Below are positions 3,059-48,641 of a DNA stretch of 64,000 bases, one piece after another. The notes beneath the pieces were generated by a model, which saw nothing but the letters and a program-made list of their open reading frames with translations, had not been told where the DNA came from and searched no databases. This stretch comes from Hydrogenophaga taeniospiralis (GTDB lineage Bacteria > Pseudomonadota > Gammaproteobacteria > Burkholderiales > Burkholderiaceae_C): assembly GCF_020510445.1 (NCBI RefSeq), contig NZ_JAHBAG010000001.1, positions 2,394,501 through 2,458,500 of the forward strand. The letters are read 5' to 3'. The position numbers and the translations under genes are program-made. Each line of letters opens with the position of its first letter. Position 1 is the first letter of the stretch.

Positions 3059-5167
3059 ATGACCGCTGAGTACCAGGTCCACGGCGATGTGGCCGTCATC
3101 ACGCTGAACAACCCGCCGGTCAACGGCCTGGGGCTGTCGACCCGGCAGGCCATCACCGCCGGGCTGGAGAAGGCCGAGAACGATGCCGCCGTCAAGGCCA
3201 TCGTGCTCACCGGCGCCGGCAAGGCGTTTTCGGGCGGCGCGGACATCCGCGAATTCGGCTCGCCCAAGGCGATCCAGGAGCCCAATCTGCTGAGCGTGAT
3301 CCTGGCGGTGGAAAACACCCGCAAGCCGGTGGTCGCGGCGGTGCACAGCGTGTGCATGGGCGGTGGCCTCGAACTGGCGCTGGGCGCGCATTACCGCATC
3401 GCGGCCCCCGGCTGCAACGTGGCCCTGCCCGAGGTGAAGCTGGGCCTGATCCCCGGCGCCGGTGGCACGCAGCGCCTGCCGCGTGTGCTGGGCGTGGAAG
3501 CCGCGCTGAACATGATCGTCAGCGGCGAGCCGGTCAAGAGCGAGATGCTGGCACAACTGCCCGGCCAGAAACTGTTCGACAAGCTGGCCGCCTCGCCCGA
3601 GTCGCTGGCCGAAGAGGCGCTGGCCTTTGCCCGTGAAGTGGCCGCCAAACACGCCGACGGCTCGGCCTTGCCGCTGGTGCGCAACCTGCCTTGCAAACAC
3701 AAGGACGGCGACGCCTACTTCCAGTTCGCGCGCAACATGGTCAAGGGCATGGCGAAGAACTTCCCGGCGCCCGCCAAGTGTGTGGACGCGGTGGAAGCCG
3801 CGACCAAGAAGAAGTTCGCCGACGGCATGGCCTTCGAGCGCGAGACCTTCATCAACCTGATGTGGACGCCCGAGTGCAAGTCGCTGCGCCATTTGTTCAC
3901 GGCCGAGCGCGCCGCGAGCAAGATCCCCGACGTGCCGGAAGACACGCCCAAGCGCGAGATCGCGTCCGTCGCCGTCATCGGCGCCGGCACCATGGGTGGC
4001 GGCATCACCATGAACTTCCTCAACGCCGGCATCCCGGTGAAGATCCTGGAAATGAAGCAGGACGCGCTGGACCGTGGCATCGGAACCATCCGCAAGAACT
4101 ACGAAGCCCAGGTGAAGAAGGGCAAGCTGAAAGCCGACAAGTACGAGCAGCGCATGAGCCTGCTCTCCACCACGCTGAGCTACGACGAGATCGGCTCGGC
4201 CGACCTGGTGATCGAGGCCGTGTTCGAAGAGATCGGCGTCAAGGAAGCGGTGTTCAAGGAGCTCGACCGCGTGATGAAGCCCGGCGCGATCCTGGCCTCC
4301 AACACCTCCACGCTGGACGTCAACAAGATCGCCCATTTCACGAAGCGCCCGCAGGACGTGGTGGGCCTGCACTTCTTCAGCCCGGCCAACGTGATGAAGC
4401 TGCTGGAAGTGGTGCGTGGTGAAGCCACCGCCAAGGACGTGCTGGCCACGGTGATGGCGGTGGCCAAGAAGATCAAGAAGACGGCGGTGGTCTCCGGCGT
4501 CTGCGACGGCTTCATCGGCAACCGCATGATCGAGCAGTACGGCCGTCAGGGCGGTTTCCTGCTCGACGAAGGCTGCACGCCCGAGCAGGTGGACAAGGCG
4601 ATGGAGAAGTTCGGCATGGCCATGGGCCCGTTCCGCATGGGCGACCTGGCCGGCAACGACATCGGCTGGGCGATCCGCAAGCGCCGCTACCAGGAAAAGC
4701 CGGACATGAAGTACAGCAAGACCGCCGACCTGCTGTGCGAAAAAGGCCGCTTTGGCCAGAAGGTGGGCAAGGGCTGGTACGACTACGTCGAAGGCAAGCG
4801 CGACGCAGTTCCGAACGCCGAGGTGGTGGCCATGATCGAAGACCACCGCAAGGCGTTGGGCATCACGCCACGCAAGATCTCCGACGAAGAGATCGTGCAG
4901 CGCCTGGTGTTCTCGCTGGTGAACGAGGCCGCGCACATCCTGGAAGAGGGCATCGCCAACAAGGCCAGCGACATCGACGTGGTCTACATCTTCGGCTACG
5001 GCTTCCCGGTGTACCGCGGCGGCCCGCTGAACTACGCCAACGAGGTCGGTCTGTTCAACGTGGTCCAGGCCATGAAGCGCTTTGCCAAGAACCCGCTGGA
5101 CGACGCGAAGTTCTGGCAGCCCGCACCGCTGCTGGCCCGCCTCGCCGCCGAAGGCCAAACCTTTTGA
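3059..5167 (+). CDS. fadB: Bifunctional enoyl-CoA hydratase / 3-hydroxyacyl-CoA dehydrogenase
   Basis: This 702-residue FadB/FadJ-type fusion catalyses two steps of beta-oxidation: hydration of 2-enoyl-CoA, then NAD-dependent oxidation of 3-hydroxyacyl-CoA. The N-terminal crotonase half shows the oxyanion-hole stretch FSGGADIREFG and the catalytic glutamates in GGGLELALG (Glu105) and LPEVKLGLIPGAGGTQ (Glu125). The dehydrogenase Rossmann motif VAVIGAGTMGGG begins near 303, followed by the catalytic-His stretch VVGLHFFSPANVMKLLEVV and a duplicated C-terminal helical domain to about 690. Length is normal. GAGGAGATT-like sequence precedes ATG 3059. The thiolase that would complete the cycle starts 33 bases downstream, so the two probably act as one beta-oxidation module. 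Confidence 0.92.
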   Translation: MTAEYQVHGDVAVITLNNPPVNGLGLSTRQAITAGLEKAENDAAVKAIVLTGAGKAFSGGADIREFGSPKAIQEPNLLSVILAVENTRKPVVAAVHSVCMGGGLELALGAHYRIAAPGCNVALPEVKLGLIPGAGGTQRLPRVLGVEAALNMIVSGEPVKSEMLAQLPGQKLFDKLAASPESLAEEALAFAREVAAKHADGSALPLVRNLPCKHKDGDAYFQFARNMVKGMAKNFPAPAKCVDAVEAATKKKFADGMAFERETFINLMWTPECKSLRHLFTAERAASKIPDVPEDTPKREIASVAVIGAGTMGGGITMNFLNAGIPVKILEMKQDALDRGIGTIRKNYEAQVKKGKLKADKYEQRMSLLSTTLSYDEIGSADLVIEAVFEEIGVKEAVFKELDRVMKPGAILASNTSTLDVNKIAHFTKRPQDVVGLHFFSPANVMKLLEVVRGEATAKDVLATVMAVAKKIKKTAVVSGVCDGFIGNRMIEQYGRQGGFLLDEGCTPEQVDKAMEKFGMAMGPFRMGDLAGNDIGWAIRKRRYQEKPDMKYSKTADLLCEKGRFGQKVGKGWYDYVEGKRDAVPNAEVVAMIEDHRKALGITPRKISDEEIVQRLVFSLVNEAAHILEEGIANKASDIDVVYIFGYGFPVYRGGPLNYANEVGLFNVVQAMKRFAKNPLDDAKFWQPAPLLARLAAEGQTF

Positions 5168-8245: not shown

Positions 8246-8640
8246 GCACGAGCGCCGCGCCGGGCCGCCCCAAGCAAGCTCGCGCCCCCTCGGGGGGCAG
8301 CGCAGTACACGAAGTGACAAGCGTGGGGGCAACATCTCGCCGCACCCTGCGCGACATCGCCCTGGCCCGCTCGGGCGACAAGGGCAACCGCGCCACGCTG
8401 AGCGTGATCGCGCTGAACCCGGCAGACTACCCTGAGCTGGAGCGCCTGCTCACCGCCGAGCGGGTGCGCGCGCACTTCGCGGGCGTGGTGCAGGGCGCCG
8501 TGCAGCGCTACACCCTGCCGCACCTGGGCGCCGTGCATTTCGTGATGTTCGATGCCCTGGGTGGCGGCGTCACGCGCTCGCTGGCGCTCGACGCCCACGG
8601 CAAGACCCTGAGCGCGGCCGTGCTGGACTTGCCGCTTTGA
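8242..8640 (+). CDS. Small AtuA-associated protein with a repeat-encoded N-terminus
   Basis: The conserved part, from about residue 36 (RRTLRDIALARSGDKGNRAT) to the end, matches the small domain often fused to or encoded next to AtuA-like proteins. Its function is unknown; the pairing suggests a complex. The first 25 or so residues (STSAAPGRPKQARAPSG and on) are encoded by a dispersed G/C-rich repeat that also occurs after livM, so this extension is probably not functional. The start ATG 8242 overlaps the AtuA stop. A later internal start is possible if the repeat is not translated, but I see no better ATG. Confidence 0.7.
   Translation: MSTSAAPGRPKQARAPSGGSAVHEVTSVGATSRRTLRDIALARSGDKGNRATLSVIALNPADYPELERLLTAERVRAHFAGVVQGAVQRYTLPHLGAVHFVMFDALGGGVTRSLALDAHGKTLSAAVLDLPL
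8246..8333 (+). repeat. Dispersed G/C-rich repeat inside the AtuA-partner gene
   Basis: The repeat starts with GCGCCGGGCCGCCCCAAGC and continues through CCCCCTCGGGGGG (a small hairpin) to GTGACAAGCGTGGGGGC. The first part is shared with 1348-1398. It is inserted immediately after the ATGA junction and is read in frame, adding about 28 residues to the downstream protein. Confidence 0.65.
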
Positions 8641-37989: not shown

Positions 37990-38498
37990 GATGGTTCCTC
38001 AAAAAGTTGGTTCACATTTCCCCGGTGAACCGGAGGATTCCGGGATCACCAGCCTGATCGACGCCGCTTGGTGCAGAGGCTCGCCCTTTTGGGGCTTTGC
38101 CTCACGTCCTGCTTTGTCTGGCTCCAGTTTCGTGAGGGAACGCACACCGGCCAATGACCTGAACTGTGTACCGAAGATGGACGACCACAAATGAGGTAAA
38201 TCGGGTGACTTCACTGGCTGTTTCCGAGGGAAACGAACCGCTTGGTGCTATGGAATTTGAGTACTTTTGGGTGTGAAAACTGGGTAGTTACAAATTGTCA
38301 ATTGGCAAACAGAATGCAAAGTAGTCAAAATCCGTCCAAGTTCTGTATCAAATTTGCAGCGTCAGCGGGCTTTTCGCACGACTTGACAGGGGCTCGGATC
38401 GCCGATTTGTGATATCGGAAAGTTTCCGTCACACAGCGACATGTTGCGCAACAGTCGAAACGATTGGGGTACTTGATGCGTTCCTTCAGGGAGGATTC
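37990..38498. other. Regulatory gap between the repeat-protein operon and the response-regulator gene
   Basis: These 509 bases separate divergent genes and show no credible coding sequence; they are A/T-rich at 38250-38480. Features seen: a perfect inverted repeat GTTTCC-GAG-GGAAAC (38220-38234), a second one CGGAAA-G-TTTCCG (38416-38428), a near-palindrome TTGTCAATTGGCAA (38295-38308), and an 11-base direct repeat CCGCTTGGTGC (38064-38074 and 38238-38248). TTGACA at 38383-38388 is a possible -35 element for the regulator gene, without a clear -10. It probably holds both divergent promoters. Confidence 0.5.
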
Positions 38499-39278
38499 AT
38501 GGAAAAACAGATGAACATGGATGGGCTCGTCAGCACATCCTCGACCGCGGTGCCGACGCTCAACCGTCAGTTCGCGATGCACACCAACCAGCCCTCTGTG
38601 TGGCCCGACTTCATGGTGGGGCAAAGCATGCAGCCCGTGCGCGTGCTGCTGGTGGACGACGACCCCCACATCCGGCACGTGATCGCGCAGGAGCTGCTGG
38701 CCGACGATCGCATCAACCTGGTGGCGCAGGCCGGTGGCCTCAAGGAGGGCCGGCGCAAGGTGGCGATGCACGACTTCGACGTGCTCGTGGTCGATCTCAA
38801 CCTGGGCGACGGCAATGGCTACGACCTGATCGAGCAGGTCAAGTCGGTGCGGCCGCAGGCCGAGGTGGTGGTGATCTCCGCCAGCGAAGACGACGAGCAT
38901 GCGATGCACGCCTTCGGGTTGGGGGCCAATGGCTACCTGATCAAGAACTCCTGGTTCGGCAACTTCCCGCAGGCGGTGCTGCAGGTGGTCAACGGCGGGG
39001 CTTCCATCACACCGAATCTGGCCAGGCGCCTGCTGCACCGGCTCGAGCCCACCAAGTCCTCGGGCAACATGATTCGCGGCAGCCGCGACCGGCTCTCAGA
39101 GCGCGAGCGCGAGGTGTTGAAGATGGTCGCGGCCGGCTACACCAGCGGCGAGATCGGTGCGCGGCTGGCGATCAGCGGTCAGACGGTGAACACACACATC
39201 CGCAACATCTACCGCAAGCTCAACGTCAGGACCCGCGCGCAGGCGGTCAGCTGCGCCACGGATCGCGGCCTTTTATAG
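38499..39278 (+). CDS. NarL/LuxR-type response regulator
   Basis: This 259-residue two-component regulator has an unusual N-terminal extension of about 45 residues. The receiver domain follows (VRVLLVDDDPHIRHVIAQEL; likely phosphorylated Asp99 in VLVVDLNLGDGNGYDL). A LuxR-type helix-turn-helix lies at about 192-255 (LSEREREVLKMVAAGYTSG and TVNTHIRNIYRKLNV). ATG 38499 has AGGGAGG just upstream. The histidine kinase gene follows 26 bases later. It lies next to the Tad locus and the CsgG-like operon, so regulation of surface attachment is likely but unproven. Confidence 0.88.
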   Translation: MEKQMNMDGLVSTSSTAVPTLNRQFAMHTNQPSVWPDFMVGQSMQPVRVLLVDDDPHIRHVIAQELLADDRINLVAQAGGLKEGRRKVAMHDFDVLVVDLNLGDGNGYDLIEQVKSVRPQAEVVVISASEDDEHAMHAFGLGANGYLIKNSWFGNFPQAVLQVVNGGASITPNLARRLLHRLEPTKSSGNMIRGSRDRLSEREREVLKMVAAGYTSGEIGARLAISGQTVNTHIRNIYRKLNVRTRAQAVSCATDRGLL

Positions 39279-39304: not shown

Positions 39305-40813
39305 ATGCTGTCGAGTTTTCTACACCCCGGCAGAATGGTCTGGACCGCGCTGGGCCTTGTTCTGGGACTGGCCGCGCTGTTCCTGATCGCCCTGCCCGAA
39401 CTCCCGTTCGGGGAGGGCGATTCCGAGCGTCTCCTGCGTCTGGTCACCGGCGTGTTTGGGGCCATGGCGGTGATCGTGGTGGCCGCGGTCCTGGTGTGGG
39501 TGGGTGTGATCGGCCGAAGCCCATCGAGTGCGTCCGTGGACCAGGCATTCCTGCTGGCCGCGCTGTGCTGGTTGCTCCTGGTGGGCTCGGGCGCTGTGTG
39601 GGCGGGCAATGACCCTGTGGCGCGCCTTGCCGCGCATGCGGTCTACCAGTTGGCGGTCGCCGGTGTGGTGTTCCTGTTGCTGGTGTGCGTGTCCTCCGTG
39701 TCGGTCGGCAGCGCTGTGCTGAGTGGGCTGCAGGCGGTGCTGGCGCTGGGGCTGCTGGGCTGGTATTTCCAGGGCGGCCCCGAACTGGCCTACCTCGCCT
39801 GGAAAGTGCTCAATGTGCTGTGGGTCACGACCGTGTTCCTGATGCTGGGCGTGACCCTGCGGCAGGGTCCGCATGGCCGTTCCTGGCTGGTGTCGGGCGC
39901 GGGCCTGATCGGGCTGGGCATCCTGCTGCGCGACATGGTGCAGGCCGACGGCCTGCACGTGCCCATCACGACCATCCACCACGTCTATGCCGCCTACCTG
40001 GCCGTGCTCTGGTTGCTGGTCACGGGCCGCATCGGGGACCTCGACAGCCTGTCATCCATGGCCCCTGTGCGCTCCGAAAACAGCGTGCTGGCGAACGACT
40101 TCGCGCACACGGACCTGATCGTCGACGAGCCGGAGACGGTGCCCTCGACACCCGAGGTGACGGTGAGCCAGGAGCGCCGCCGCATCGCGCAGGACCTGCA
40201 CGACGGCGTGGGTTCGCAGCTCGTGAGCATCCTGTCGTCGCTGGACCGCGGCATCCCGCAGCAGCGCTCGCTGTCGTTCGCGCTGGAGCAATGCCTGCTC
40301 GATGTGAAGATCCTCGTCGATGCGATCGACGAAAGCAGCGAGAGCGTGACCGACGCGCTGGGCCGGCTGCGCTACCGCGTCCAGCATTCGCTGGACAAGC
40401 TGGGCATCCAGATGGTTTGGGACGTGGACGTGGATGGCCCGCTTCAAACGCTGCGGGACGACCGCAGCCGGCAGGTTCTGCGCATCGCGCAGGAGTCGAT
40501 CGCCAACGTGATGCGCCACTCGAAGGCCCGCACGGTCTGGCTGTCGTGCCACTGCCTGGCCGATCAGCAGACCCTGGCGCTGGAGGTCCGCGACGACGGG
40601 GTTGGATTCGAGCAGTGTGCCGGCGGGCCTGGCCGGGGCAAGGGCCTGGAGGGCATGCGCCGGCGGGCCGAGGCCTGTGGCGGGCGGTTCGACATCGAGA
40701 GCGCGCCCGGGCGGGGGACGCGGGTGCGCGTCACGATGGCGGTGGGCGAGCGGCGTCCGGCGGGCCCGAACGGCACCCCCGACAGCCGGTACGCCCGGCC
40801 GCGAAAGGCCTGA
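39305..40813 (+). CDS. Membrane histidine kinase, HisKA_3 (NarX/DegS-like) type
   Basis: This 502-residue kinase has an N-terminal part of about seven hydrophobic segments (10-245) that probably senses a signal within the membrane. A linker follows, then the dimerisation/phosphoacceptor motif RRRIAQDLHDGVGSQL with His299. The HATPase domain has IAQESIANVMRHSKA, DDGVGF and GKGLEGMRRRAEACGG. The final 30 residues are Pro/Arg-rich. It forms a pair with the response regulator just upstream. ATG 39305 is the first start after that gene. Confidence 0.87.
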   Translation: MLSSFLHPGRMVWTALGLVLGLAALFLIALPELPFGEGDSERLLRLVTGVFGAMAVIVVAAVLVWVGVIGRSPSSASVDQAFLLAALCWLLLVGSGAVWAGNDPVARLAAHAVYQLAVAGVVFLLLVCVSSVSVGSAVLSGLQAVLALGLLGWYFQGGPELAYLAWKVLNVLWVTTVFLMLGVTLRQGPHGRSWLVSGAGLIGLGILLRDMVQADGLHVPITTIHHVYAAYLAVLWLLVTGRIGDLDSLSSMAPVRSENSVLANDFAHTDLIVDEPETVPSTPEVTVSQERRRIAQDLHDGVGSQLVSILSSLDRGIPQQRSLSFALEQCLLDVKILVDAIDESSESVTDALGRLRYRVQHSLDKLGIQMVWDVDVDGPLQTLRDDRSRQVLRIAQESIANVMRHSKARTVWLSCHCLADQQTLALEVRDDGVGFEQCAGGPGRGKGLEGMRRRAEACGGRFDIESAPGRGTRVRVTMAVGERRPAGPNGTPDSRYARPRKA

Positions 40814-40826
40814 GGGTGGGGGTGCC

Positions 40827-40911
40827 GTGGAGCCGCTGGACGGCGGCGCCACGGTGCCCTTCATCGCCGCTGTCGCAGGAAGTCACAGACGGGTTGGACG
40901 ACATCCAGCTG
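40827..40911 (+). pseudogene. Decayed fragment of tex
   Basis: These 85 bases align with 46260-46346 of the intact tex gene 5.4 kb away, in the same direction. Shared stretches include GCTGGACGG, GCCACGGTGCCCTT and TGGACGACATCCAGCTG (tex: TGGACGATGTCCAGCTG). The matching tex codons encode VELLDGGATVPF to GGLDDVQL. Small length changes break the frame. It marks the left side of the accessory island and suggests that tex once followed the kinase gene directly, or that part of tex was duplicated when the island came in. Confidence 0.75.
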
Positions 40912-41463
40912 AGCCGGGGGCCTTGCTGCCCGAAGCGGTAGTCTCCGCGCTGCGGGTCACCAGCAGGCCAGGACGCAGAAGGTGGTTGCCAACTTGTGAC
41001 AAAACGTTGCAGAATGGCCGCTGGAACGGACAACAACCAACAACGTTCTAGACCAGAGGGAGGCTATGGTCCACCAACATCCGACACCACAGCGAAGCCG
41101 CGCCGAATCATCGGGCTGCCAGGCTTCGGCATTCGAGTTCACCCAGGAGCTTTCATTCGATTCGCCACACGGGCGCACGAGAGTCCCGTGGTTGGCGTTC
41201 AGATCGCATTTGCTGAAAAGGGCCATCGGTCCCGTGCCCGCGCCGTTGGTGCGACGTGAGATTCGTCAGCCCGCCAGTGGAAAACGCCACTCCAGTCGGT
41301 CGAGATGCTCGGCTTGATGGAGCAGATACGCAAGCTCGACCAATGAGTTGGATGAATATGGATTCCATATCTATCCAGAAAATCTGCATCTATCCAAATG
41401 TGGATACATGTGGCTTGCGGTCGAGTCGTTTAAATCAAAGTTGGAACTCTCCAAAGGAACCCG
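40912..41463. other. Gap at the left of the island; repeated TGGAT/ATCCA motifs before the TIR gene
   Basis: No credible gene lies here: two short open frames (40996-41259, 41066-41317) have no family likeness and poor starts. From about 41340 the base content turns A/T-rich. ATATGGA-T-TCCATAT (41356-41370) and TATCCA-AATG-TGGATA (41391-41406) are perfect inverted repeats, and further TGGAT or ATCCA copies lie at about 41349 and 41373. They could be operators of the TIR gene. GTTGGAAC at 41440 is a possible left cassette junction. Confidence 0.4.
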
Positions 41464-42372
41464 ATGAAGGTATTTATTAGTTGGTCAGGGACCGTTAGCC
41501 ACAAGGTTGCCACTGTATTTCGTGATTGGCTTCCGTCGGTAATACAGAGCATAGAACCATATGTATCATCGGAAGACATCGACAAGGGGGCTCGATGGTC
41601 TACGGACATAGCAGGCGAACTCAATGCTTCGAGTTATGGACTTGTATGCATGACCAAAGACAACCTTGATGCTCCATGGATCAACTTCGAGGCTGGCGCA
41701 CTTGGGAAGAGCATTGAGAAAAGTCGTGTCAGTCCATTCCTGTTTAGGCTTAAGCGATCTGAAGTTGAAGGCCCAATTCTGCAATTCCAGTCCACAGTGT
41801 TCGAACGCGATGACGTTCTAAAGCTGCTCAAGTCGATTAATGCTGCTTGCACCCAAGATGCTTTGGAGGACGCTCGTCTTGAAAAAGCTTTTGAAGTTTG
41901 GTGGCCTCAGTTGGAAGCGCAACTGTCAGCAATCGTTGATGCCCCGACTACCGAGCCTGATGAAAAATCGGTTCCAGTTGAGAATGGTGTGTCCGACAAA
42001 TCTGCTCGCGTTCTAGAAGAAATTCTTGAACTGACCCGTAATAACCACAAACTACTTCGCGACCCGACCTCACTGTTGCCTCCGGACTATGTGGAGCATG
42101 TAATTCGTCGTCGCCCTCCACGCGATCACGAGCCTCTAGGGATTCGTGGGTTTGAGGGAGAAATCGAGCCCGAAGCGATCCGTGATGTAGTTGAGCGCTA
42201 CAGAGATGCACTGAAATTCTTCGCTCGTGCTCGTCCATTACTCGATCGCCATCCTGAGTACATGGAGCTTTACGAAATCATGGAACGGATGGATGCCCCT
42301 CTTCGATACATCAGTAGCAAGATGAACATGCGAATTCCGAAGGAGCCATTCAATGACAAAGGACAGTTCTAA
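41464..42372 (+). CDS. TIR-domain protein (integron cassette 1)
   Basis: A cytoplasmic protein of 302 residues. Residues 1-130 form a TIR domain: KVFISWSGTVSHKVA, then SSEDIDKGARWSTDIAGEL and the catalytic-type Glu76 in PWINFEAGAL. Bacterial TIR domains with this Glu cut NAD+ or make cyclic ADP-ribose signals in anti-phage defence. Residues 165-302 are helical with no known domain; they may sense the trigger. CTCCAAAGGAAC precedes the ATG. The stop lies inside the attC that follows (42367-42432). Base content and codon use are more A/T-rich than the chromosome around, a sign of transfer. Confidence 0.85.
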   Translation: MKVFISWSGTVSHKVATVFRDWLPSVIQSIEPYVSSEDIDKGARWSTDIAGELNASSYGLVCMTKDNLDAPWINFEAGALGKSIEKSRVSPFLFRLKRSEVEGPILQFQSTVFERDDVLKLLKSINAACTQDALEDARLEKAFEVWWPQLEAQLSAIVDAPTTEPDEKSVPVENGVSDKSARVLEEILELTRNNHKLLRDPTSLLPPDYVEHVIRRRPPRDHEPLGIRGFEGEIEPEAIRDVVERYRDALKFFARARPLLDRHPEYMELYEIMERMDAPLRYISSKMNMRIPKEPFNDKGQF

Positions 42373-42432
42373 CATGGCGGTCAACCGGACCTGAGCGAAA
42401 AGCCGCGCAGGCCGGTTACCTTCACGTTAGAT
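42367..42432 (+). other. attC recombination site 1
   Basis: The site starts with TTCTAAC (42367-42373) and ends with GTTAGAT (42426-42432), the R'' and R' boxes. Inside, GGTCAACCGG and CCGGTTACC pair with one unpaired C, the extrahelical base typical of attC. Spacers of 5 bases separate the boxes. It overlaps the stop of the TIR gene, as attC sites often do. The central part shares GCGAAAAGCCGCGCA-like sequence with site 2. Confidence 0.8.
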
Positions 42433-42470
42433 CACAGCAGCACCCGCTATCGCACCTAAGGAGCGAGTAA

Positions 42471-43898
42471 ATGAGCGATCTAATACCGAAGCCCCAGATG
42501 CAGTTGGTTGACCCGCAAGCACAGATTGTTGTCGACTTCTTGAGGAACGTCGGGCTGCCGCACGACAACATAATTGCCGCGCATGATCAGAGGGCGATCA
42601 TCGGACAAAACCTACCGAACTTCATTGAGTCGTTGCCTGCCGAAGTAAAGCAAGGCGCCCGATATCTTTCGAAGTTCGTTGTCGGAGCCGGCTTCGGCTT
42701 ATTCGACTATTCGCTGAATGCTATTTGGAACGAGGTTGTTCTCGATCTACACAAGAAGGCGATAGCCTACGGGCTTGATATTTTCTACGACGCCGCAATT
42801 GGTGGAAAGGCCAGAGAGTTTTATCAGACTGAGGACGATCTTCGTTCCCTCAAGGATGCAGTGCTTCTTGATACGTGCAGAAAGCTCGAACTAATCAGCG
42901 ATACAACGCATAAGAAGCTCAAGCATATTCTTGACATGCGAAACGATATTGGTATTTCGCATCCAACCAACTACACCATCAATGCCTTTGAACTGTTGGG
43001 CTGGCTGCAAACATGCATTCAAGACGTACTAAACGATCGCCCGACAGAAGCCGCCCTTCAGGTGCAAGCGTTCATACAAAACCTGAAGACATACACTCAG
43101 CTACTAGACCCAGCTAATCTAGCGAGTATCTCGAACAAAATAGGTGCGCTGGCCTCGCACCACTGCGGCAACATTCTTCGAACAATGTTCGGGATCTACG
43201 TCGCTCCCGACACAGATCCACAAGTGCGCAAGAACATTTCTCTCTTGGCCGTGTCGGTCTGGAAAGCGAGCAGCGATGACACCAAATACAGGCTGGGCTT
43301 GACTCTAGAAGGCTACAACACCAATCTCTACCGCGAGAAATATCAACTTGGTGAACAGTTCTTCCAGTCAGTTGGAGGGAACGCCTTTCGCTCAAATGCC
43401 GAGCGGGCCATTATTGTCGATGGTCTTATTGATCAGCTTCTGGAAAAGCACAATGGCTGGGACAACTTCCATCACGAGGCGCCAGTTGCCGATAGCATCT
43501 CTTCATACATAAATGGCCAACAAGACATTCTGCCGAATTTTGCACCCAAGCTAATCAAGGTCGTCCTCATGTGCCGCATAGGTCGCGGTATGTCGTACTG
43601 CAATGGTGTATCTCCACGCGGCCGCTCATACTATGACCGAATTATTGGCTTGCTCGGCGACCAGTTCACTCCGACAGCGCTTGCCGCTCTTACTCAATAT
43701 GAGATTCAGGCAAGGCTAGACCGTGATATTTGTCGCCAGCAAGCATGTTTGGCTCTGGGCGTCTTAAAGGCCAGCATCGTGAACCAGCGATTACAAGAGT
43801 GCATCGACTTCCTAATTGCCAATCTTCCAGCCACAGGAAAAGCCGTCTTTGATAGTCGCTTTAAGACACTATCGTCTGGCTACATTACGTGGCCGTGA
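42471..43898 (+). CDS. Unknown protein with HEPN-like RNase motif (integron cassette 2)
   Basis: A 475-residue protein without a family I can name with certainty. Residues 130-185 hold a helical segment with RNDIGISH (157-164), an R-x6-H motif of the HEPN type, followed by PTNYTINAFELLGWLQ, as seen in HEPN ribonucleases of toxin and defence systems. The C-terminal half (190-475) is largely helical and could sense a trigger. TAAGGAGCGAG precedes ATG 42471. It lies between two attC sites, so it is a complete gene cassette. It has lower G/C than the surrounding chromosome. Confidence 0.7.
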   Translation: MSDLIPKPQMQLVDPQAQIVVDFLRNVGLPHDNIIAAHDQRAIIGQNLPNFIESLPAEVKQGARYLSKFVVGAGFGLFDYSLNAIWNEVVLDLHKKAIAYGLDIFYDAAIGGKAREFYQTEDDLRSLKDAVLLDTCRKLELISDTTHKKLKHILDMRNDIGISHPTNYTINAFELLGWLQTCIQDVLNDRPTEAALQVQAFIQNLKTYTQLLDPANLASISNKIGALASHHCGNILRTMFGIYVAPDTDPQVRKNISLLAVSVWKASSDDTKYRLGLTLEGYNTNLYREKYQLGEQFFQSVGGNAFRSNAERAIIVDGLIDQLLEKHNGWDNFHHEAPVADSISSYINGQQDILPNFAPKLIKVVLMCRIGRGMSYCNGVSPRGRSYYDRIIGLLGDQFTPTALAALTQYEIQARLDRDICRQQACLALGVLKASIVNQRLQECIDFLIANLPATGKAVFDSRFKTLSSGYITWP

Positions 43899-43963
43899 TC
43901 TAACCTCTCGTCCGAGAGGACCTGCGAGAAAAGCCGCGCAAGCCCTCAACTCAAACGTTAGAC
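43898..43963 (+). other. attC recombination site 2
   Basis: It starts with ATCTAAC (43898-43904) and ends with GTTAGAC (43957-43963), 66 bases like site 1, and shares GCGAGAAAAGCCGCGCA with it. The inner pairing is less regular than in sites 1 and 3. It starts at the last base of the stop codon of cassette gene 2. Confidence 0.75.
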
Positions 43964-43983
43964 CTATTTCGAAGGATATGCCA

Positions 43984-44409
43984 ATGAACGAGAAGAAATA
44001 CGAAGAAGTCGGTCATGCTTATCGCTTCTTCCTTGGCTGGAGGCATGCGGCATTCGCCGGGAACATTGTCGTGCTTTACGGGGTCGTTTCGCTCTGCGTT
44101 TCTTTGGCAAAAGATGCGCCGCTCCAATTGTGGGTAGTTCCTCTCGGCGCCTCACCACTTGGGGTCTTCTTCTGGTGGATAGACCGCAGAACTAGAGATC
44201 TCTACCACGCCGCAATGAACGCTGGGAAAGAACTCGAAGGGGAAGAAGGTGGCTTCTATACCCACCTCAGCAAGATTGCTCTCCCCGCCGGTTCGTCGGC
44301 GTTCTCTCGGGCCAGTCAGTCAGGGGCACTAAGCACATTTTTCCTTGGCTCCTCGGCGGTGCTGCTAATCACAGGCATAAGTTTGTGTATTCGTCAGTTC
44401 TGCCGATGA
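43984..44409 (+). CDS. Small membrane protein (integron cassette 3)
   Basis: A 141-residue protein with three likely membrane segments (about 20-40, 45-65 and 115-137). Polar stretches between them include WWIDRRTRDLYHAAMNAGKELE. No family is recognised. ATG 43984 is preferred over ATG 43978 because AAGGA lies 7 bases before it. The gene lies between attC sites 2 and 3 and fills its cassette. Membrane effectors are common in small defence cassettes, but there is no direct sign of that here. Confidence 0.75.
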   Translation: MNEKKYEEVGHAYRFFLGWRHAAFAGNIVVLYGVVSLCVSLAKDAPLQLWVVPLGASPLGVFFWWIDRRTRDLYHAAMNAGKELEGEEGGFYTHLSKIALPAGSSAFSRASQSGALSTFFLGSSAVLLITGISLCIRQFCR

Positions 44410-44410
44410 C

Positions 44411-44503
44411 GTCTAACATCTCGCTCCAGGGAACCTGCCGGCTACGCCGGCAGGTTCCCTCCGGCCTTCGGCCTCCGATCGTCCCTGAGCTAGCACGTTA
44501 GCC
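44411..44503 (+). other. attC recombination site 3
   Basis: The site starts with GTCTAAC (44411-44417) and ends with GTTAGCC (44497-44503). Next to the boxes, GCTCCAGGGA and TCCCTGAGC pair with one unpaired C, as in site 1. The middle holds a perfect 14-bp hairpin: GGGAACCTGCCGGC and its complement around TAC (44429-44459). The site begins one base after the stop codon of cassette gene 3. The longer centre is within the known range for attC. Confidence 0.8.
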
Positions 44504-44559
44504 ACAATCCACAGAAACATGTCGCCGACGAAATTAGCCAAATTAAAGCGAGAAGATAT

Positions 44560-44997
44560 ATGTATTACCATGCAATAGTAGAAACCACGGACAAGAACAA
44601 AAAAGGTGACTATGAACGCTGCTATGAACTGGACTGCGAAAATCTTGACGAGATTATTGATCTGATTGTTCGACCATTTTCAAGAAATGAACAGATTTAC
44701 GTTAGTGGTATGCACATCGACCGGCAAAAGGTTAGGCTGCTAAAGATCAAGTCCTCCGAAAGACCATTGGCAGAGTTACGCGATATTGCTCAGAGCACCG
44801 TAGGTCTAGGTGTTATTTTTGGGGTCACACACACACAACACACACAATGGGGTCAGGTCTGGCCTTTTGCCTATTGGTTCTCATTGGGGCAAGACGCAAG
44901 ACTTGACCCCATTTCTGCTCCGTCCGGATCAAGCGAACTCTTTGACGCATCCGCACGAGGGGGGAGGTATAGCGGAAACACTACGTTCATCTCTTAA
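44560..44997 (+). CDS. Cassette gene with a C-terminus replaced by a palindromic repeat (probably broken)
   Basis: The first 90 or so residues (MYYHAIVETTDKNKKGDYER to LGVIFGVT) look like a real small domain. It resembles N-terminal domains found before TIR-like nucleotide hydrolases in some defence proteins, which I hold at low confidence. From about base 44825 the frame runs through a CA-rich tract and a 68-base palindromic element (44846-44913), and the rest (HTQHTQWGQVWPFAYWF and on) is not protein-like. The original 3' end is lost, so this is likely a remnant. No attC is visible after it. Confidence 0.5.
   Translation: MYYHAIVETTDKNKKGDYERCYELDCENLDEIIDLIVRPFSRNEQIYVSGMHIDRQKVRLLKIKSSERPLAELRDIAQSTVGLGVIFGVTHTQHTQWGQVWPFAYWFSLGQDARLDPISAPSGSSELFDASARGGRYSGNTTFIS
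44825..44845 (+). repeat. CA-rich short tandem repeat
   Basis: Runs of CA (TCACACACACACAACACAC and on) lie directly before the palindromic element inside the broken cassette gene. Length changes here would shift the reading frame. Confidence 0.6.
44846..44913 (+). repeat. REP/RAYT-like palindromic element
   Basis: AATGGGGTCAGGTCT (44846-44860) and AGACTTGACCCCATT (44899-44913) are inverted arms matching at 14 of 15 positions around 38 bases. GGGGTCAGGTCT...GACCCC palindromes are widely spread in proteobacteria and often mobilised by REP-associated transposases. None is coded in this window. It interrupts the end of the cassette gene. Confidence 0.65.
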
Positions 44998-45028
44998 TGT
45001 TCACGTCCAACTAATCTCAGGAGAACTT

Positions 45029-46030
45029 ATGAAATCAGGTGCGAGCAAACCGGCCCAATTGATCGCAATCTCGATCATGATGGTCACATCGTCAGTGGCT
45101 GTCGGGCAGAACCTTCAGTGCCCAGATATAGCCAAGACGCTAAAAGAGTACTCGATCGATTCTTCATCTAGCAGCTACCTAAACGCCGTATTTAGTCAAC
45201 ATTGCCAGCAAGACGGGAGTCGCAAGTCCGACGGTGGTGGAATTGGTCTGGAAGCAGTCGTCAAAGCCATTCCCATCAAGTTCACTGGTAGCTACTCCAA
45301 CTCAGAAGAGGCAGTGTCAAATTTTTGCAAGACATACGCCTCGCAGACAGCTGCCACGGCCGCCAGCGACAGCTACAAGGAAACGATCTCGTTGAAGGCG
45401 CTAGAAACGATTCAGCAATGCAACGCGCTTCAGGGGAGTGGTGTGACCATCATTCATCAAGTGAACAACGTAGAGGCAGCAAACTTCTACCTCCGAAGGT
45501 CTGTGATACAACCCCTTGAGTTGCAGGGCGTTGCCGCTACTGGCAATGTTACCTGCGAGGGCCTAGTTGGAGGAAAGAAAAAGGTGTTCGACTCTTCCAT
45601 CAGCGTTTCCGTAAAGACCACTCAAAGTTTTGCCTGCAAGCGAGTAGGTCAGCGTCAAGCAGCGGGAAGCCCCCTCTTTTTTTCTGAATCCATTATTACT
45701 GTCTTGACAAATCAAGGGAACTATTCGCTCTTTTGGCCCAGGGATGAGCGGCAAAGCGAAAACATGGCGACGCAGATCGATCGTCGAATCACGTTGGCTG
45801 AAGGCGAACTCGCGGTAACCAAGGCAAACGTTGTCCCGCTTGTAAAGGCGTCCTCTCTGGCTATCTACAAATGTCCATCAGGCGCTGCAGTTTCCTACAA
45901 CGCAGCCTGGATGTATCTAGGTTGCAACGGCCAGCTGTCTGCAGAAAGCACATGTAGCAACGTTTGGTACAACAAACCGGTCGAAGTTCGCCAATGCGCA
46001 CCGGCCGGAAATTTGCGACTTTTCCAATAG
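45029..46030 (+). CDS. Secreted ten-cysteine protein of unknown function
   Basis: A 333-residue exported protein with a signal peptide (cut near SSVAVGQ, about 26). Ten cysteines are spread over the mature part, an even number that suggests disulphides outside the cytoplasm. Residues 60-75 have a Gly-rich stretch (SDGGGIGLEA). No domain is recognised. CTCAGGAGAACTT is a good ribosome site for ATG 45029. It has lower G/C than the chromosome and lies between the broken cassette gene and tex; whether it is itself a cassette is unclear because no attC follows it. Confidence 0.7.
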   Translation: MKSGASKPAQLIAISIMMVTSSVAVGQNLQCPDIAKTLKEYSIDSSSSSYLNAVFSQHCQQDGSRKSDGGGIGLEAVVKAIPIKFTGSYSNSEEAVSNFCKTYASQTAATAASDSYKETISLKALETIQQCNALQGSGVTIIHQVNNVEAANFYLRRSVIQPLELQGVAATGNVTCEGLVGGKKKVFDSSISVSVKTTQSFACKRVGQRQAAGSPLFFSESIITVLTNQGNYSLFWPRDERQSENMATQIDRRITLAEGELAVTKANVVPLVKASSLAIYKCPSGAAVSYNAAWMYLGCNGQLSAESTCSNVWYNKPVEVRQCAPAGNLRLFQ

Positions 46031-46048
46031 ACAAGCTTAGTCGAGGCT

Positions 46049-46076
46049 GCTTGGCGCGGCCTGACCCGCGCCAAGC
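46049..46076 (+). terminator. Hairpin after the secreted-protein gene
   Basis: GCTTGGCGCGG and CCGCGCCAAGC form a perfect 11-bp stem around a 6-base loop, 18 bases after the stop. There is no T-run. It may end transcription of the island before tex. Confidence 0.5.
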
Positions 46077-46193
46077 CACTGGCCGATTGGCTGTTCCGTA
46101 CCTAAGCGTCCCGCTAGCGGCCCCGGTAGCCGCGCACCCCTGTGGCAAACTCGCCCGCTTCGTTTGAAACCGGGCCGCAGGCCCCCGAGGGAC

Positions 46194-48641
<2,448 letters not shown>

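Follow-up and report, generated by a model that had tools for sequence, protein, structure and literature searches.

A probable chromosomal integron without its integrase gene upstream of tex in Hydrogenophaga taeniospiralis

Results

The locus

The stretch of Hydrogenophaga taeniospiralis DNA analysed here (64,000 nucleotides of contig NZ_JAHBAG010000001.1, hereafter the window) carries a cluster of attC sites and gene cassettes between a sensor histidine kinase gene and a gene that we take to be tex. The cluster consists of an attI-like site followed by three complete cassettes and one that is broken (Table 1), and very probably represents a chromosomal integron that is devoid of its integrase gene. 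Cassette 1 encodes a TIR-domain protein, cassette 2 a protein with an HEPN-like domain and cassette 3 a small membrane-like protein. Handles such as G066 and L049 denote genomes and loci, respectively.

Table 1. Features of the cassette cluster and its flanks (positions in the window).
Feature	Position	Strand	Basis
Response regulator gene	38409-39278		Ahead of kinase gene
Sensor histidine kinase, left flank	39305-40813	+	Open reading frame list; 81% identity at equivalent place, L049 of G066; start codon chosen by us
tex 5' leftover fragment, second copy	40824-40914	+	88% to G066 tex; repeat D2
Segment known upstream of tex in relatives	40948-41130	+	74-89% identity, tex loci of G047, G016, G059, G060
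attI-like site, type C	41342-41442	+	Core GTTTAAATCAAAGTT 41428-41442; recombination GTT 41440-41442; 78% over 101 nt to G016, also G040
Cassette 1, 986 nt	41441-42426	+	Ends inferred from GTT boxes: attI core and R' of site 1
TIR-domain protein, 302 aa	41464-42372	+	PADLOC TIR-TM, Pfam TIR_2, Glu76
attC site 1	42367-42432	+	Geometry, DNA fold, covariance model
Cassette 2, 1531 nt	42427-43957	+	R' boxes of sites 1 and 2; direct repeat D1, start-to-start spacing 1531
475-aa protein, HEPN-like N-terminal domain and HEAT/ARM-like C-terminal repeats	42471-43898	+	
attC site 2	43898-43963	+	Geometry, covariance model
Cassette 3, 540 nt	43958-44497	+	R' boxes of sites 2 and 3
141-aa membrane-like protein	43984-44409	+	Hydropathy
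attC site 3	44411-44503	+	Geometry, DNA fold, covariance model
Probable fourth cassette gene	44560-44838	+	PADLOC PDC-S35 match stopping after 93 codons
Inverted repeat, GGGGTCAGGTCT type, pair I1	44846-44913	.	Near end of the fourth gene's match
tex (presumed), right flank	46194-48641	+	Open reading frame list

attC sites

The three pairs of R boxes that an earlier note had read from the letters of the window are present: TTCTAAC (42367-42373) with GTTAGAT (42426-42432), ATCTAAC (43898-43904) with GTTAGAC (43957-43963), and GTCTAAC (44411-44417) with GTTAGCC (44497-44503). As likewise claimed there, all three sites lie on the + strand right after + strand genes, on the stop codon or one base past it. 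The TAA of the TIR gene falls inside R'' of site 1, the last base of the TGA of the cassette-2 gene is a base of R'' of site 2, and a single base separates the TGA of the cassette-3 gene from R'' of site 3.

The inner arms with a single bulged C proposed for sites 1 and 3 pair at 9/9 positions under a fixed geometry (R'' - 5 nt - 3 nt - one extrahelical base - 6 nt - loop - 9 nt - 5 or 6 nt - R'). No other 9/9 match occurs in the window, and none was found on either strand of 100 Markov-1 randomised 64-kb sequences. Site 2, to which the earlier note had assigned no inner arms, forms 6/9 pairs with C at the bulge position, and the extrahelical base is C at the same position in all three sites. 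Matches of at least 6/9 arise by chance 1.41 times per 64 kb (0.076 times in 3.1 kb of insert composition) in randomised sequences, and site 2 consequently needs other support. Sites 1 and 2 form a direct repeat with 70% identity over 64 nt.

A covariance-model search, which had been suggested as a check, was run with our own model of 20 attC training sites (none in the window, two from another part of the same genome) and matched all three sites. With filters off, site 2 is the best place in the window at 37.7 bits, site 1 follows at 33.5 bits and the next place scores 10 bits. Site 3 is unlisted in that run; with default filters the same model gives it 33.2 bits (E-value 4e-5), and the search of the own genome an E-value of 9.3e-4. 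No Rfam model matched across the window at its gathering threshold, and only two weak, unrelated matches at E-values up to 10 appeared in 40000-46500. The proposed folding of the bottom strand as DNA is far stronger than that of shuffled sequences for sites 1 (z -5.5) and 3 (z -6.2); site 2 folds poorly (z -1.7). We interpret the folding as an indication of palindromes and not of strand preference, because the top strands fold nearly as well (z -4.8, -1.0 and -5.2 for sites 1, 2 and 3).

The attI-like site

At other attC places of the genome a conserved element ending in TTTAAATCAAAGTT stands just ahead of the first cassette, and the core in Table 1 is its window copy. Elements of the same family precede some of the integron integrase genes of relatives. 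Among the 67 genus genomes, 12 contain the core pattern GTHTAMATCAAAGTT, with 21 copies in all, and the reversed pattern is absent from all 67. Integrase similarity was detected at 14 of the 21 core loci and directly adjoins the core in 13, in several of which the match comprises only 28-36 residues, mostly a frame through the attI region and the first codons. Four core-adjoining integrases exceed the family cut-off, two in G035 (1-291 and 1-284 of 315), one in G040 (72-315) and one in G056 (with one internal stop); the exact core was not found beside the other 15 of the 19 over-cut-off integrase places in the genus.

By its sequence, the window element is an attI-like site. It belongs to a variant, type C, that is common to the window, G016 (101 nt) and G040 (102 columns). 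No integrase adjoins any of these three copies, and the attI identity of the type C element therefore rests on its core.

Search for the integrase

The absence of an integrase gene (intI) from the window, as stated in the earlier note, is corroborated by a tblastn search with nine integrase frames, which gave zero matches in the 64 kb. The recommended search of the whole genome (5.28 Mb in three contigs, rated 100% complete) with the profile TIGR02249 returned nothing over the cut-off: the highest score is 87.1 bits against a cut-off of 265 (XerD whole-protein score 127). The best integrase-like piece, located at C1:650014 some 1.8 Mb from the window, comprises 51 C-terminal residues and has a shorter mirrored piece about 20 bases on. 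N-terminal integrase remnants of 26-29 residues adjoin attI elements at 0.93, 2.38 and 2.88 Mb. The profile matches of the genome further include XerD (360 bits, above its own cut-off), a XerC-like protein (318 bits, slightly below the XerC cut-off of 335) and one distant tyrosine recombinase. Across the genus, an integrase match over the TIGR02249 cut-off is present in 15 of the 67 genomes.

The earlier note had classified the cluster as a CALIN (cluster of attC sites lacking an integrase). This holds insofar as the cassettes have no neighbouring integrase; the attI-like site had been overlooked, and six other attC places are present on the chromosome. Because the attI-like site is kept, we regard the cluster as an integron minus its integrase rather than as loose cassettes.

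The tex site in relatives

A match to tex is found in 66 of the 67 genus genomes, in some covering only part of the protein. The tex loci of 20 relatives were fetched, several of them cut at contig ends. In G066, the closest relative by tex, the kinase gene (81% identical) and tex adjoin with about 90 nt between them, and a kinase gene also stands beside tex in L051, L052, L053 and L068 (kinase identity 47-51%). Kinase and tex are thus neighbours in 5 of the 20 tex loci, and an arrangement with the same genes and boxes in fixed position in all relatives, which would speak against the earlier note, is not what we find. In the window, the distance from kinase to tex is about 5.4 kb, beginning with the tex fragment and then the segment known from relatives. 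The fragment is 84% identical to the window's own tex over 44 nt (repeat D2). Such a partial tex 5' copy between the kinase gene and the insert may indicate that the insert came with a tex copy via recombination.

The type C element of G016 is followed by five attC matches and then by tex. In G040, tex is preceded by two attC matches at the end of a contig, and in G060 by a short attI type B stretch and one weak attC match (24.6 bits). The presence of attI or attC there in G016, G040 and G060 implies that the site upstream of tex has been used repeatedly in the genus. Upstream of tex in L055 (G047), two open reading frames with identical first 70 residues surround one of 358 aa, an arrangement that would represent another insertion.

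Cassette proteins

The TIR protein matches PADLOC TIR-TM with 406.5 bits over almost the whole model, and Pfam TIR_2 with 27.7 bits, just below the cut-off of 28. Glu76, presumably the catalytic glutamate of the TIR domain, is present in 121/121 aligned sequences (the window protein and the best 120 of 4604 relatives). The transmembrane segment implied by the label TIR-TM was not detected by hydropathy, with a 19-residue peak of 0.76. Two of 18 TIR relatives in the family (L079 and L077, about 200 bits each to TIR-TM) are attC cassettes themselves: the former lies between 112-nt sites with the same arms, and in the latter R'' begins on the base after the stop.

Many homologs of the cassette-2 protein carry the precomputed tag PF27235. 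An Rx4-6H motif is present, with R157, N158, H164 and P165 invariant in 24 aligned proteins; no relative of solved structure was found by sequence at E-values up to 1. For the surroundings of the gene, 22 loci in named genomes were compared, one of which was dropped from the box counts (match cut on the 3' side), leaving 21 other loci. With a criterion that was fixed after the sequences had been read, NYCTAAC within 30 nt of the stop, a box follows the cassette-2 gene in 9/21 loci versus 4/507 other open reading frame stops of the same loci; a GTT box at 45-165 nt is added in seven of those nine versus 3/507 control stops. The covariance model, trained without the Vibrio-type sites that some other cassette-2 loci resemble by eye, places an attC at the stop in 3/22 loci (L092, 40.3 bits; L102, 41.9 bits, a training-set member; L107, 21.2 bits). 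In L092, from Xanthomonas arboricola, the relative stands among three further attC sites, all in the training set. The family genome G092 encodes a true integron integrase (486.9 bits), and the gene right next to it codes for a 26% identical relative, with an attC (again a training-set member) after it. The analysis singles out this family of HEPN-like and HEAT/ARM-like proteins, whose genes have attC-type boxes behind them in distant bacteria. Among 72,556 plasmid records, 75 also contain relatives, and 47 of these plasmids are predicted to be conjugative; the enterobacterial relatives among the matches listed are about 50% identical.

The cassette-3 protein has a hydropathy peak of 2.03 over 19 residues, and none of the 53 proteins found for it, itself included, bears a Pfam tag. 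The fourth gene matches PADLOC PDC-S35 with 43.6 bits at model positions 1-93 of 278 only. A sequence resembling the GGGGTCAGGTCT-type inverted repeat near its end is also found after the cassette-2 gene in L098. Between array and tex, a 333-aa protein (45029-46030) with a hydrophobic N-terminal stretch gave no family match, and no attC was found after its gene.

Other attC places on the chromosome

The covariance search of the own genome, in which 150 of 2201 candidates were scored, yielded at least 20 attC places at E-values up to 10 and at least 16 at up to 0.06, two of the latter in the training set. Among the matches listed, they form seven groups at 0.65, 0.87, 0.93, 2.38, 2.44 (the window), 2.88 and 3.99 Mb. 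All of the at least 20 listed matches lie on the + strand; dnaA is at 716 kb, and if the terminus is opposite, replication would run in the direction of the attC sites at five of the seven places. By flanking similarity, the place at 2.38 Mb has its equivalent in G066, and that at 2.88 Mb in G066 and G020. The region at 0.65 Mb (L008:6003-10000, C1:650002-653999) resembles a second, eroded integron, with the C-terminal integrase fragment, its shorter mirrored copy and attC sites; an IS110-family transposase gene lies near an attC-like stretch. Other attC-associated genes encode an AbiU2 HEPN protein (1.5e-10, L134:6509-7129), a DUF4062 protein (3e-28, L136:4373-5449) and a candidate Cthe_2314-like HEPN protein (4e-4, below cut-off, L133:5640-6536). 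None of ten chosen attC-associated genes of the genome matched PADLOC at E-values up to 0.01.

A common module of about 310 nt occurs in seven loci (L133, L134, L135, L141, L149, L151 and L162) of five genomes. By eye, its left border looks sharp (CGACCCGGAGCGGG). The attI is at its right end, and none of the copies adjoins a complete integrase gene. Integrase remnants with nearly the same internal deletion, comprising residues up to 54 and then 311-356 of the query, are present in two species (L144 of G066, 8255-8554; L150 of G007, 4588-4849).

Discussion

Origin of the cluster

The attI-like site, the attC sites and the cassette structure suggest that an integron integrase inserted the cassettes one behind another at attI. 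The integrase gene would subsequently have been lost here, and the profile search found no full one elsewhere in the genome. Because of this twofold lack the cassettes should no longer be mobile unless the cell acquires an integrase. Cassette 1 may be expressed from a putative promoter within or close to attI.

Some observations would fit other explanations: no integrase remnant adjoins the cluster in the window or the type C elements in G016 and G040, site 3 has a long GC-rich hairpin, and the arms of site 2 are weak. Cassettes can enter chromosomal attG sites, and those of the window could have been placed into an ordinary site of this type, without a local attI, by the integrase of another integron. 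The missing remnants and the presence of cassettes at seven places in the genome would fit such an origin, which we nevertheless consider improbable: the DNA ahead of cassette 1 shares an attI core and 101 nt with G016, where it likewise opens an array upstream of tex, and the cores of types A and B adjoin integrase genes. The hairpin of site 3 and the arms of site 2 could also be expected if chance palindromes, transcription terminators or repetitive extragenic palindromic (REP)-type repeats had been mistaken for attC. We attach next to no weight to this explanation in view of the randomised windows without a 9/9 match, the C at one bulge position in all three sites, the covariance model scores and the attC-type boxes after the cassette-2 gene elsewhere.

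An active integron with its integrase on a replicon missing from the assembly would agree with a search confined to three contigs. It is very improbable, given that these contigs are rated complete, that nothing in them exceeds the cut-off and that the integron-type integrase pieces are fragments. A chromosomal integron without its integrase gene is thus the origin that we favour.

The less ordinary part of the finding is the six further attC places, several of which are opened by attI elements without a complete integrase gene. It is possible, although rather unlikely, that the genus uses many such scattered attI elements as docking sites for one shared, trans-acting integrase, and that the tex site of the window is one of them. 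This idea is based on the module of about 310 nt, on two chromosomal places that are occupied in related species with different integrase remnants, and on the tex place with attC matches in four genomes (weak in one). If true, the integrons of the genus would form a network of docking sites on one chromosome instead of one array.

Putative function of the cargo

Integrons carry phage defence cassettes, and the cargo of the window probably protects against phages, judging from sequence and fold. Cassette 1 would provide a TIR enzyme with NAD or a similar nucleotide as its substrate, and cassette 2 an HEPN ribonuclease whose repeat domain would serve in sensing or binding; both may be abortive-infection effectors.

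Comparison with known systems

The TIR protein is alike to the PADLOC candidate defence protein TIR-TM across almost the whole model, and differs in having no hydropathy-predicted transmembrane segment. The HEPN superfamily with its Rx4-6H motif includes proteins of integron cassettes (PMC3710099). The cassette-2 protein shares with it the R-N-x5-H at a helix end and loop start, the polar residue after R and the carriage on an integron cassette, but is distinguished by its length of 475 aa and its HEAT/ARM-like C-terminal half.

The class 1 attI core has been published as AAACAAAGTTRRRY (PMC12901181). The window core, AAATCAAAGTTGGAA, has the same CAAAGTT end before the crossover; with only the cores compared, it deviates in an extra T ahead of CAAAGTT and in an A, not Y, at the last box position.

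No paper on such integrons was among the matches listed for the literature on Hydrogenophaga, which is also a named host of a cassette-2 relative. CALINs are common; the reported ones have two or more attC sites and no integrase (PMC9024848). The window cluster is similar to them in having at least two attC sites (here three) in one direction and no integrase nearby, but it keeps an attI-like site, so that its integron origin is readable. Work on chromosomal integrons of Xanthomonas describes repeated inactivation of intI and, away from the ilvD locus, CALINs at conserved places (PMC12444791). The repeated loss of intI and the cassettes stranded at fixed chromosomal positions are paralleled here, whereas in the present case attI elements of at least three types are retained at several places, and several species have attC at the tex site. 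As a kind, an integron relic with CALIN features and a lost integrase is already known, and the window contributes a clear example, a chromosomal integron in which attI and a cargo resembling phage defence have outlasted the integrase.

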